From positions 1,054,001 through 1,118,000 of the forward strand of contig JARFXR010000002.1 in NCBI GenBank assembly GCA_029194535.1: DNA of 64,000 nt, written 5' to 3'. Shown piece by piece: positions 23,912-29,268 of this stretch. Position numbers and translations under genes: made by a program. The DNA is from Nitrospira sp. GTDB lineage: Bacteria; Nitrospirota; Nitrospiria; Nitrospirales; Nitrospiraceae. Numbering within the stretch: the stretch's first letter is position 1; the number at the start of each line of letters is the position of its first letter. Below the pieces are notes generated by a model. That model did no database searches. It was not told where the DNA came from and worked only from the letters and a program-made list of their open reading frames with translations.

Positions 23912-24313
23912 CTATGAGGCGAGAGTGACGGCGGGTTCCTCCTCCGGCCACCGCTCCAGCCCCATATCGCACATGCCGTGAAAATGCGACCCCTCTTCAA
24001 TCGCGATCGACGGGGTACGGATGTCACCCACGAGGACACCGGGCTTGTGGACGCTGATTTTTTCCACCGCCGTGATCGTCCCGTTGATCCTGCCGCTGTT
24101 CATGAGAACGCCGGCCGACACGACTCCCTTGATGACCGCCGTTTCTCCGACGATCAAGGTCCCGGTCGTATGGATTTCGCCCTCGACATGGCCATCAACC
24201 CGCACAGTGCCGTCGAATTTGACGACACCCTTGAAGCGGACGTCCTTGGCGAAGAGCGTGATATTGTCGCGCCCCTGCACCATCGGATTCTGGCGTTCCT
24301 TCAGTGCCCACAT
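23912..24313 (-). CDS. Bactofilin (DUF583)
   Basis: A 133-residue bactofilin. The central beta-helix has the regular pattern of short strands with glycines: GVVKFDGTVRVDGHVEGEI, TGTLIVGETAVIKGVVSAG, MNSGRINGTITAVEKISV. Flanking tails are short, with an acidic C-terminus. Bactofilins polymerise without nucleotide into filaments that scaffold the cell pole, the envelope or the segregation machinery. A second bactofilin is 67 nt upstream and parAB precede both, suggesting a pole or segregation role. Confidence 0.92.
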   Translation of the reverse strand: MWALKERQNPMVQGRDNITLFAKDVRFKGVVKFDGTVRVDGHVEGEIHTTGTLIVGETAVIKGVVSAGVLMNSGRINGTITAVEKISVHKPGVLVGDIRTPSIAIEEGSHFHGMCDMGLERWPEEEPAVTLAS

Positions 24314-24380
24314 GCCTACCTCCCGAGGGTTGTAGTTGTAAAGGATACTGGGTGTACGCCGGCCGATCGAGGATCAGCGG

Positions 24381-24872
24381 CTAGGCGCCCACCCGTTTGA
24401 CACCGGAGGCGCTGCTTCCGCTCAGGGTATGTACCGTGGCACCTTGAGTACCCTGACCCATCTCCAGCCCCCCGTTGAACTGCACGCCGTCTTCCATCGA
24501 GAGAATCGGCGTCTTCACGCTGCCGTTGACGACGGCCGGTGCGCGCAGCTTGACGCGTTCTCTGGCGACGACGTCTCCCGTGATCTTGCCTTTGCAGACG
24601 ATCGTTCCCGCGGAGATTTTGGCCTGAATGACGGCGTCCTCTCCGATCAACAGCGTGCCGTCCGTTCGAATTTCCCCCTCCAACGAGCCGTCGATCCGCA
24701 CCGTGCCGTTATAGGAAATGGTGCCCTTGAAATCCACGCCTTTCCCGACGAAAGCACTGATGTCTTCCAAGCCTTCCTTGCCGGTGGTGGACTCCGTTTG
24801 AGACTGTTCAGTATCCTGATCTTGGTCTCCCTCTGTCTGGCGTTTGGCGTCCTGTTTATCCTGTCCCCACAT
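24381..24872 (-). CDS. Bactofilin (DUF583)
   Basis: A 163-residue bactofilin with a strong AGGAGGAG site 6 nt before ATG 24872. The N-terminal ~35 residues are polar, rich in Gln, Glu, Asp and Thr, and probably disordered. The beta-helix follows (AFVGKGVDFKGTISYNGTV, IDGSLEGEIRTDGTLLIGED, KISAGTIVCKGKITGDVV). It differs enough from the downstream copy to be an old duplication. It may co-polymerise with that copy. ParB is encoded 154 nt upstream. Confidence 0.92.
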   Translation of the reverse strand: MWGQDKQDAKRQTEGDQDQDTEQSQTESTTGKEGLEDISAFVGKGVDFKGTISYNGTVRIDGSLEGEIRTDGTLLIGEDAVIQAKISAGTIVCKGKITGDVVARERVKLRAPAVVNGSVKTPILSMEDGVQFNGGLEMGQGTQGATVHTLSGSSASGVKRVGA

Positions 24873-25026: not shown

Positions 25027-25852
25027 TCACTGAAGAATATTTTCCAGAATCCCGTCGAGCTCCGCGGGAGAAAAATAGTGGATGATGATTCTGCCGCCAC
25101 GGCGGCCGCTGGCGATCTTCACCTTGGTGCCGAGCCGTTTCTCCAACCGATGTTCGACATCCGACAAAGGAGACCGCCTGACCTCTTTGATCTTGCGCTT
25201 CTTCTCACCGAGAGCGGATTCGACTAAGTTTTCGGTTTCTCGGACAGAGAGACCGCGGGCCGCGATCAGTTGAGCGATCCGTTGCTGCTCGACAGGACTC
25301 GACAGCCCTAGAATGACCTTGGCATGGCCCAAGGTAAGCTGATCGGTCTCGATGAGTTGTTGTACGTCGGCAGGAAGGTTCAGCAGTCGGACGATATTGG
25401 CAATGGAAGACCGTTCACAACCGACCCGCTGGGCGATCACCTCCTGTGTCAGACCGAATTCCACCAGCATGCGGTGATAGGCCCTCGCCATTTCCAAAGG
25501 ATTGAGATCCTCACGCTGGAGATTCTCCACCAGGGCCAGGACCATGGACTCGTCGTCGCTGCAGTTCCGGACGACGGCTTGAATGGTCTCCAGCCCGGCG
25601 GCTTTCGAAGCACGCCACCGACGCTCTCCCGATATCAACTCATAGATCCCGTCTCCCTTGCGCCGAACGAGTATCGGCTGCAGCAACCCGCTTTGTTTGA
25701 GCGAGGCCGTCAACTCATCGAGTTCCTGCGGCGAGAAGCTCTGTCTCGGTTGATATCGGTTGGGGACGATCGCATCAACCCGAAGGTGCTGCACATCAGT
25801 TGCGTCAGGCACCGCAGTCGGTTTGCCGGAGGGAAGGAGCGCCTCCAGACCC

Positions 25853-25875
<23 letters not shown>
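25027..25875 (-). CDS. parB: Chromosome partitioning protein ParB
   Basis: A 282-residue CTP-dependent DNA clamp that loads at parS. The N-terminal domain has the family boxes YQPRQSF and SGERRWRASKAAGL, where CTP binds. A helix-turn-helix EVIAQRVGCERSSIANIVRLL follows near residue 140, and a C-terminal dimerisation part (HYFSPAELDGILENIL) ends it. It starts inside parA with a 23-nt overlap. Two parS palindromes lie about 0.8 and 1.4 kb upstream. Confidence 0.96.
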
Positions 25876-26629
<754 letters not shown>

Positions 26630-26657
26630 CGATCTCTCTCTAACCTTCATCCTCGCC

Positions 26658-26673
26658 TGTTCCACGTGGAACA
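26658..26673. promoter_or_regulatory. parS site
   Basis: TGTTCCACGTGGAACA, a perfect 16-bp palindrome matching the bacterial parS consensus, lies between rsmG and parA. It is the loading site for ParB encoded about 0.8 kb away. Confidence 0.95.
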
Positions 26674-26681
26674 GGCCTACC

Positions 26682-27332
26682 TCATTTCGGTGACAAAACG
26701 GTAATCACTCGCTCACCGGCATTCTCTGGCAAGTCAAACTTCCGCTGGGCTTCGATCACAAACTTCGTTGGAGAGTCTTTCAAAATCAGTGGCTCTGTTC
26801 GATACAGCACGATTTTACCGGTGGGCAGAGCCAGGGAGAGCAATTCTGAATGAATGACGTCCGCGCGTACTGCCCTCGCTGTAATAAAGCGCGTGTGAGC
26901 ATCACCATGGTCCTGATACTCCTGAACCGTTCGAGCAAATACCTCAATGTCCGTGAGTCTGAGTGTTCCGATGAGGGAGGACAGAAACGAGCATTTTTTC
27001 TTATTTGATTCAATCAACGTCACCTGCAGATCAGGTCGAACAATCTTGAGGGGAATTCCAGGAAAGCCTGCTCCGGTTCCCACATCAATCAATTTTGCTT
27101 GATAAGGAAATAGAACCGTCGCAAGCGATACTAGGGAGTCGATGAAGTGCTTTATCACAATTTCACGGGGGTTTGTGATGCTTGTGAGGTTAATTGTCCT
27201 GTTCCAATACGTGAGTTGTGACAGATACCTCATGAACTGTGTGCATTGGTCTCCCGTGAGGGCAATTTTAAATTTCTCGGCTGAATGAATGAGGAGCTTC
27301 TCCAAATCCACTTCATGTTCCACGTGGAACAC
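26682..27332 (-). CDS. rsmG: 16S rRNA (guanine-527-N7)-methyltransferase RsmG
   Basis: A 216-residue methyltransferase that modifies G527 of 16S rRNA. The SAM motif is LIDVGTGAGFPGIPLKI, preceded by NLTSITNPREIVIKHFIDSL, the family signature. It starts at GTG 27332, so the first codons read FHVEHE; they are the parS palindrome itself, as seen in other GidB proteins. It follows mnmG by 22 nt. Codons are more AT-rich than in the neighbouring genes. Confidence 0.95.
   Translation of the reverse strand: MFHVEHEVDLEKLLIHSAEKFKIALTGDQCTQFMRYLSQLTYWNRTINLTSITNPREIVIKHFIDSLVSLATVLFPYQAKLIDVGTGAGFPGIPLKIVRPDLQVTLIESNKKKCSFLSSLIGTLRLTDIEVFARTVQEYQDHGDAHTRFITARAVRADVIHSELLSLALPTGKIVLYRTEPLILKDSPTKFVIEAQRKFDLPENAGERVITVLSPK
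27316..27331. promoter_or_regulatory. parS site inside the rsmG start
   Basis: A second perfect TGTTCCACGTGGAACA palindrome covers bases of the rsmG start and codons 2-6. ParB bound here would sit on the rsmG ribosome-binding and start region. Confidence 0.95.
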
Positions 27333-27354
27333 TTACGTGAACCGGAGAGAGAGG

Positions 27355-29268
27355 TCAAGACTGAATCTCGACTCTACCGTCTTGAGCAACGGTGGATCCG
27401 CCTTGTCTCTTACTTTTTTCCAGGGCCACGAGAAGAAGTGAGATCGCCGCCGGAGTGACACCAGAAATTCTGGAAGCTTGACCAATCGATTCCGGTCGGA
27501 CCTTGAGCAACTTTTCTCGCACCTCCTGGGAGAAGCCAGGAACGTGATGGTATGGGAAGGTCGGTGGAATCAGCTTGCCCTCAAATTTGCTGAAACGAGC
27601 AACCTGCTGAAGCTGACGCCTGATGTATCCGGCGTACTTGACATGAATCTGAACTTCTTCAATAATTTCAGCATCTTCTTGTCGATCAATATCCAAACAT
27701 GCGAGCAAACTCTGATAATTAACACCTTGTCGACGAAGCAGCTGCGCCACGGTACATGTGTTGGACAAGTCCGAAATACCTGCTCCGTATAGGCGCGACC
27801 GGACATCATCCGTCGGATTCAGGCGTAGGCTCTCCAATCGCTCAATTTCACGGGTAATTGCTTCTCGCTTTTTCTGGAAGCGCGCAAAGAGCTCTTCCGA
27901 AACCAATCCCACTTGTCGACCTTGCTCGGTCAAACGTAGATCGGCGTTCCCGTGCCTGAGTAGGAGACGATATTCAGCGCGGGACGTAAACATGCGGTAG
28001 GGTTCGCGTGCATCCTTCGTAATCAAGTCGTCGATCAGGACTCCAATGTAGGCTTGCGAACGGTCAAGCACGAGCGGAGACTTCCCCTGCAGCTTCAGGA
28101 CGGCGTTGATCCCGGCCATCAGACCTTGGGCGGCAGCCTCCTCGTATCCGGAGGTTCCATTGATTTGTCCCGCATGGTAGAGCCCCTCAACCAGCTTGGT
28201 TTCCAAAGTCGGATGCAACTGCCGCGGCGGGAAATAGTCGTACTCGATCGCATAGCCGGGCTTGAGCATCGTGGCCTGCTCCAATCCTGGGATGGTCTTG
28301 AGGATCGCAGCCTGCGCGTCTACAGGGAGACTGGTCGAGATCCCATTGGGATAAAACTCTCGACTCTCTAGGCCTTCAGGCTCAACAAAAACCTGATGTC
28401 GTTGCTTATCCGCGAACCGAACCACTTTGTCTTCGATCGAAGGACAATACCGTGGTCCTGCAGATTCAATCACTCCGGCATACAACGGCGACCGATCGAG
28501 ATTATTCCGGATAATGTCGTGCGTGCGCTCATTCGTGTGAGTCAGGTGGCAATCGCGCTGAGGCGTCCGCACGTGATCGGTTCGGTATGAGAACGGCGGA
28601 GGAGGCTGATCTCCCGGCTGAGGAATCATGACGGAAAAATCGATAGTATCCCTATCCAATCGGGGAGGAGTGCCGGTTTTCAACCGGCCCACCTCAAAAC
28701 CGAAATCCCGCATGCAGTCGGACAAGTGCTCCGCCGATGCTTCGCCCGCTCGACCGGCCGCAAAATGCTGGAGACCAATATGGATGAGACCCTTAAGGAA
28801 TGTACCTGAAGTCAAAATGACCGCTTGGGCGTCCAGGCGCTCGCCGCCTTCCGTGACGATGCCGGTGACCTTCCCTCCGCTCGTGAGCACCCGATCGACC
28901 GTTCCCTGGGCGATGGTCAACCTCGACTCGCGCTCGAGTGTCGTCCGCATGGCCTCTCGATACAGCCCCTTGTCGCACTGCGCCCGTAACGCCCGCACCG
29001 CCGGCCCCTTACTGGTATTGATAAAGCGAAACTGGATGCCGGCCAGATCCGTGTTTCTGGCCATCTCGCCTCCGAGGGCGTCGATCTCCTTGACGAGATG
29101 CCCCTTTGCAATGCCGCCGATGGCCGGATTGCACGACATCTGTGCAACGCGCTGCAGGTCCATCGTCAACAGGAGGGTCCGAGCCCCCATGCGCGCCGCG
29201 GCCAAGGCGGCTTCACAGCCGGCATGCCCGCCTCCCACGACGATGATTTCGAATCGGCGTCGATCCAT
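27355..29268 (-). CDS. mnmG: tRNA uridine-34 5-carboxymethylaminomethyl modification protein MnmG (GidA)
   Basis: A 637-residue FAD enzyme that, with MnmE, adds the aminomethyl-type group to C5 of wobble uridine. The FAD motif [19 protein letters not shown] begins at residue ~11. [20 protein letters not shown] and [10 protein letters not shown], which carries part of the active site, are visible. The C-terminal tRNA- and MnmE-binding helical domain ([32 protein letters not shown]) is complete. It starts 9 nt after mnmE. Confidence 0.97.

Follow-up and report, generated by a model that had tools for sequence, protein, structure and literature searches.

A parS site locked into the rsmG reading frame next to conserved promoter-like blocks in Nitrospira: a possible part of the start signals of the rsmG-parA-parB operon

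One of the two parS sites that lie beside the parA and parB genes of Nitrospira sp. is placed on the very start of rsmG, and comparison across the family of this genome indicates that the site is kept in the rsmG reading frame and abuts a conserved pair of promoter-like blocks. We propose, with confidence evenly divided for and against, that this site (parS2) helps to provide the start signals for an operon of rsmG, parA and parB, plausibly autorepressed by ParB. Under this proposal, a promoter (TTGAC, a 17-18 bp spacer and TA..TG) would end in the first bases of parS2, transcription would start inside the site, and translation of rsmG would begin on a codon that the site provides. ParB at parS2 would then compete with RNA polymerase and lower the output of all three genes; by this negative feedback, Par protein levels would be coupled to the availability of free centromere sites.

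In the window, i.e. the whole stretch of 64,000 nucleotides that was analyzed, the gene order is mnmG - parS2 - rsmG - parS1 - parA - parB, with all genes on the minus strand. The mnmG (gidA) gene (27355..29268; TIGR00136, 889.7 bits) ends in a TGA stop (27357-27355) that, in the source genome, overlaps the TTGAC block described below; rsmG (gidB; 26682..27332; TIGR00138, 134.8 bits) starts either at GTG 27332 or at the central GTG of the parS site, at 27323. For parA, which encodes a Walker ATPase (25853..26629), the likeliest start is the ATG at 26629 (MAKIIAVTNQKGG), and the longest open reading frame begins at a GTG within parS1 (26665); the protein contains the motif NQKGGVGKTT and matches ParA-type models, all below their curated cut-offs. 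The parB gene (25027..25875) encodes a chromosomal protein of the ParB/Spo0J type (ParB/RepB/Spo0J family, TIGR00180, 184 bits against a cut-off of 58.45), which resembles solved chromosomal ParB and Noc proteins, its closest solved chains being ParB proteins (7bnk, E = 7.9e-55). As expected of a ParABS system, a ParA ATPase gene adjoins parB. The genes rsmG, parA and parB follow each other on the same strand with short gaps, parA and parB overlapping, and presumably share one transcript.

The G+C content across rsmG and its flanks (26001-28000) is 0.496, compared to 0.59 for the whole window. Downstream of parB lie two adjacent open reading frames (23912-24872) that we take to be bactofilin-like; for the one at 24381-24872, NCBIfam gave no match. 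With respect to the chromosome, the window's genome has dnaA on one contig and parS on another. In one relative (G055; 4,317,083 bases), dnaA coincides with a sign change of the skew and is separated from parS by 328.6 kb (7.6% of the genome), and in a further genome (G110) the dnaA-parS distance is 1.1 Mb and the skew is irregular, the skew in each case being sampled from 20-kb stretches, not from whole chromosomes.

The sites parS1 (26658-26673) and parS2 (27316-27331) are the same 16-mer, TGTTCCACGTGGAACA, a perfect palindrome, located 658 bp apart from start to start as an earlier sequence-only reading had described, and both fit the parS consensus kind TGTTNCACGTGAAACA. In the source genome (3,979,322 bases in 5 contigs), TGTTYCACGTGRAACA has exactly two exact matches, parS1 and parS2; no place in the whole genome matches with one mismatch, and five further places match with two. 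The chance expectation per genome under a base-composition model is 0.0007 exact copies of the 16-mer and 0.002 for any Y/R form. Given exact consensus sites and a ParB of the right family nearby, both palindromes are, to judge by sequence, ordinary parS sites of a chromosomal ParABS system; their identification as parS in the sequence-only reading is therefore upheld, these being the only exact copies in the genome and adjoining parA-parB. That reading had also treated the two sites as equivalent, which they are not. The first site, parS1, lies outside genes, downstream of the stop of rsmG (26682) and ahead of the likely ATG of parA, and is there the centre of a longer perfect palindrome of 22 bp (26655-26676). 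Alignment of 58 loci revealed no conserved blocks in its flanks, and it stands in no uniform frame to rsmG, so that parS1 was rejected as a second regulatory element of the kind proposed for parS2, which is embedded in putative expression signals. In the same 58 loci, parS1 tends to extend into a longer palindrome, the first flanking pair being complementary in 32 of them compared to a mean of 22.3 in shuffles.

The overlap of parS2 with the start of rsmG is likewise seen, with a correction to its extent: although the site does lie within the rsmG start, it is not equal to codons 2-6; with GTG 27332 as the first codon, it extends from the second base of codon 1 through codons 2-5 to the second base of codon 6. 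Read on the minus strand, it thereby supplies rsmG with an edge N-TG (codon 1) and a central GTG (codon 4, 27323-27321). Across the window's family, the length of the match from parS to the NLT codons of rsmG equals 1 mod 3 in 100 of 100 matches, which fall into seven length classes from 136 to 160. For comparison of individual loci, a set of 71 was assembled from the window, 30 loci from the family search and 40 of the 100 matches selected to spread over genera. On a tree of 68 RsmG domains from these 71 rows (three were omitted because they were short or the motif was not found), the parS-NLT length changed at least nine times and never went off-frame. The rsmG frame after parS2 is free of stops for 35 codons in all 71 loci, whereas the other two frames contain stops in 52 and 63 loci, respectively, which argues that the sequence behind parS2 is translated in the rsmG frame. 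Taken at the level of sequence comparison, parS2 is locked into the reading frame of rsmG across the family.

Immediately upstream of parS2, two promoter-like blocks are conserved in the 71 loci, namely a -35-like block, TTGACC (27353..27358, minus strand), and the TTNNCGTA block with a -10-like hexamer, TANNTG (27330..27341, minus strand). The last two bases of the hexamer are the first two bases of parS2, its sixth base, G, being fixed by the site. All 71 loci have TTGAC at a distance of 27-29 bases upstream of parS2 (identified by script in 69 and by eye in L129 and L193), and the CGTA just before parS2 is nearly fixed, with 1.8-2.0 bits for each of C, G, T and A at positions −6 to −3; flanking columns mostly hold 0-0.3 bit, and those from −60 to −29 and from −19 to −11 mostly less than 0.4 bit. 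TA follows TTGAC at 23 or 24 bases, corresponding to a spacer of 17-18 bp, as it does in sigma-70 promoters. With this sigma-70-like spacing, the blocks may constitute a promoter, and the predicted transcript start falls inside parS2. The CGTA block may also be read as an ECF-type element, which we presume to be possible. The stop codon of mnmG was rejected as the reason for the conservation of TTGAC: its distance upstream varies from 26 to 197 bases, and it falls on the TTGAC block in only three of the 69 loci compared, an mnmG match being missing in two of the 71. Two observations count against the proposed combination of promoter and centromere. A strict sigma-70 scan of window positions 26500-27500 gave no promoter, the -10-like hexamer having the parS-fixed G as its sixth base, and the pair TTGAC-N15-18-CGTAA is not enriched in the source genome (19 matches vs. 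16 in the reversed control), so that the block pair is unsupported as a frequent genome motif. The sequence-only reading had suggested that ParB could affect the expression of rsmG and parAB; such an effect is plausible, the more so because a conserved promoter-like block pair abuts parS2.

The position of the rsmG start can be narrowed by exclusion. In 38 of the 71 loci, codons 6-28 contain no ATG, GTG or TTG, so that translation in those loci must, as far as the sequences indicate, start within parS2, on either the edge N-TG or the central GTG, barring an unusual start codon. At the edge, 43 loci have TTG, 14 ATG, 13 GTG and one CTG; an in-frame stop immediately precedes this codon in 61 of the 71, and a Shine-Dalgarno-like motif precedes it in none of the 71 (in one locus, L178, the NLT search used in this analysis picked an earlier NLT). 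This combination of a TTG-rich edge codon, a preceding stop and a missing Shine-Dalgarno would be odd for an ordinary start and suggests that, in many members, a leaderless message is translated from the central GTG. In that case, the edge N-TG would have no coding role, which would explain the predominance of TTG, the single CTG, the preceding stop and the lack of a Shine-Dalgarno. In loci with ATG at the edge, such as the deeper-branching L053 and L056, translation may begin at this ATG. In its fullest form, the proposal would have parS2 act as ParB loader, operator, transcription start point and start codon, with a leaderless or nearly leaderless rsmG mRNA starting at the central GTG; we offer this version tentatively and consider it rather doubtful. 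Among 453 open reading frames without a Shine-Dalgarno-like motif, TANNNT is found 14 to 10 bases before the start in 34, compared to a background of about 19, a weak general sign of leaderless-type starts in these genomes.

Loss of parS2 was observed in genus g63. In two loci of this genus (L304 and L306), the site has decayed, with five and four mismatches, and TTGAC, CGTA, the ATG, the central GTG and the frame are all kept, as is an exact parS1; the two genomes are close relatives and are 88% and 72% complete. Since the blocks persist without parS2, the expression signals appear separable from ParB binding, and parS2 would be dispensable in these two genomes. The pattern fits a promoter and start codon onto which parS was fitted, and the loss itself counts against the proposed joint function. 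In total, 19 genomes of the window's family lacked the parS-NLT pattern; a GidB match was present in 12, 11 loci (L298-L308) were read and eight genomes were left out. The 11 loci comprise three with an exact parS2 and a variant NLT, four with TGTTCCACGTGGAACG, one with TGTTCTACGTGGAACA, two decayed and one truncated. Thus, five of these 11 further loci have a parS2 with one mismatch, which again counts against the proposal; four of the five are altered at the last base. The same last-base change (TGTTCCACGTGGAACG) is found in L298, L302, L303 and L305, from three genera, and turns codon 6 into Arg; TGTTCCACGTGGAACG is perhaps a tolerated parS variant.

At least one exact parS site is present in 103 of 118 genomes sampled across the phylum. 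Within the window's family, parS is followed by the rsmG NLT codons 109-139 bases later in 99 of 118 genomes (81 of the 91 of high quality), representing 18 of 22 genera. With a slightly shorter range of gaps, the pattern occurs in 26 of the 118 phylum genomes, of which 21 belong to the window's family, four to family f5 and one to another. In the four f5 genomes, a stop closes the frame shortly behind parS and is followed by an ATG, which places parS ahead of rsmG and not inside it. In these loci (L154-L157, from G013, G003, G039 and G046), parS opens a mini-ORF of about eight codons (MFHVEQ...) that ends before rsmG and resembles an upstream ORF. A scan of genome contigs gave at least 116 loci, which are not an unbiased survey; among the matches listed, parS is at the 5' end of RsmG in at least 18, and 13 of these 18 have it in an open frame (12 Nitrospirota and one Clostridia). 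Two oddities were encountered. One genome (L128; G125:C139:14050-14197) carries two near-identical parS-rsmG starts on two contigs, reflecting duplication or mixed strains, and a genome from a different family of the phylum has a pair of exact parS sites just 33 bp apart (G011:C11:121504-121552).

The same observations can be accommodated in other ways. It is a realistic, if not the favored, possibility that parS2 is merely a centromere site at the rsmG start, that the blocks are the rsmG promoter, and that ParB occupies the site without any regulatory effect. Sites of this kind near or in gidB are known elsewhere, according to the available part of the T. thermophilus study (PMC4409726), and B. 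subtilis without Spo0J is described, in the portion consulted of PMC5521831, as showing no significant expression change; more generally, these excerpts and those of PMC7022226 indicate that, in most well-studied species, ParB at native levels affects nearby genes little, which counts against autorepression here. In the window itself, parS1 is a nearby second site without conserved flanks. What a centromere alone leaves unexplained is the base-exact placement of parS2 relative to both the blocks and the frame throughout the family, unlike that of parS1, although shared ancestry combined with a separate constraint on each part could produce such a fixed placement.

It is improbable that rsmG is translated from the edge N-TG in coupling to mnmG on a longer transcript, the blocks being no promoter (e.g. 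the site of another protein) and parS2 simply encoding FHVE(H/Q). The mnmG stop is close in the window (22 bases), the edge codon is ATG in 14 of the 71 loci and in deeper-branching ones, and the strict promoter scan was negative; however, the edge codon is TTG or, once, CTG in most loci, a stop usually precedes it and a Shine-Dalgarno-like motif never does, the mnmG stop is up to 197 bases distant in other members, and the 23- or 24-base distance is that of sigma-70 promoters. Very unlikely is the further suggestion of the sequence-only reading, that ParB spreads from both sites and silences the whole region. Excerpts of PMC5521831 do report ParB spreading of up to 20 kb in ChIP studies and silencing of parS-near promoters on test plasmids by P. 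aeruginosa ParB, but the region here contains mnmG, rpmH and other housekeeping-like genes. Moreover, as far as the available text of PMC5521831 and PMC7022226 goes, B. subtilis shows no broad silencing at native levels (a spo0J null mutant did not differ significantly), and local repression is limited in V. cholerae, S. pneumoniae and P. aeruginosa.

The proposal that parS2 belongs to the operon's start signals has partial precedents. In M. bovis BCG (PMC2346475, in the part available), as in the window, parS lies at the 5' end of gidB, there over the -10 of a sigma-70-like gidB promoter; gidB and parA are co-transcribed, and control of the operon by ParB was proposed. Unlike the window, the BCG site is described as upstream of gidB, not as gidB codons, and the second mycobacterial parS is inside parA; the portion seen of that account contains no family-wide analysis of conserved blocks or frame. 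Similarly, the T. thermophilus chromosome has a parS within gidB just upstream of parA, bound by ParB in gel shifts, but this parS is single, and the available text mentions no link to a promoter or start codon (PMC4409726). Direct repression of adjacent promoters by ParB at parS3 and parS4 of P. aeruginosa resembles the role proposed for parS2, except that these sites are intergenic and the targets are PA0011 and PA0013, not gidB-parAB (PMC5521831, as excerpted). Plasmid par operons, for which autoregulation of the ParA or KorB type is common, also have a partition protein controlling its own operon; there, ParA usually binds the promoter, whereas in the window the centromere itself would be the operator, and chromosomal ParA proteins do not have the N-terminal domain that serves autoregulation on plasmids (PMC7022226, available sections). 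Literature searches on parS, gidB, ParB and start codon returned only the T. thermophilus and M. bovis BCG cases; those on parS, rsmG and ParB returned nothing, and those on Nitrospira parS or on leaderless starts in Nitrospira nothing on the point. A description of parS as both rsmG codons and the end of a conserved promoter-like element was not found in a search that left the subscription literature mostly outside. A parS in gidB and a parS over a gidB promoter are already known; the unexpected part here is parS2, with its fixed frame and its promoter-like neighbors.

For annotation, these observations carry a warning: in this family, it is a DNA site and not the function of the protein that determines how RsmG begins (FHVEH or FHVEQ), and translation may not include all of these residues. 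The control of ParA and ParB levels in chromosomal systems is poorly settled. If the proposal is true, a centromere fused to the start signals of the operon would be a simple alternative, with ParB reading its own free sites, and the family-wide locking of the frame together with the decay of parS2 in g63 offers a natural comparison of operons with and without the site.
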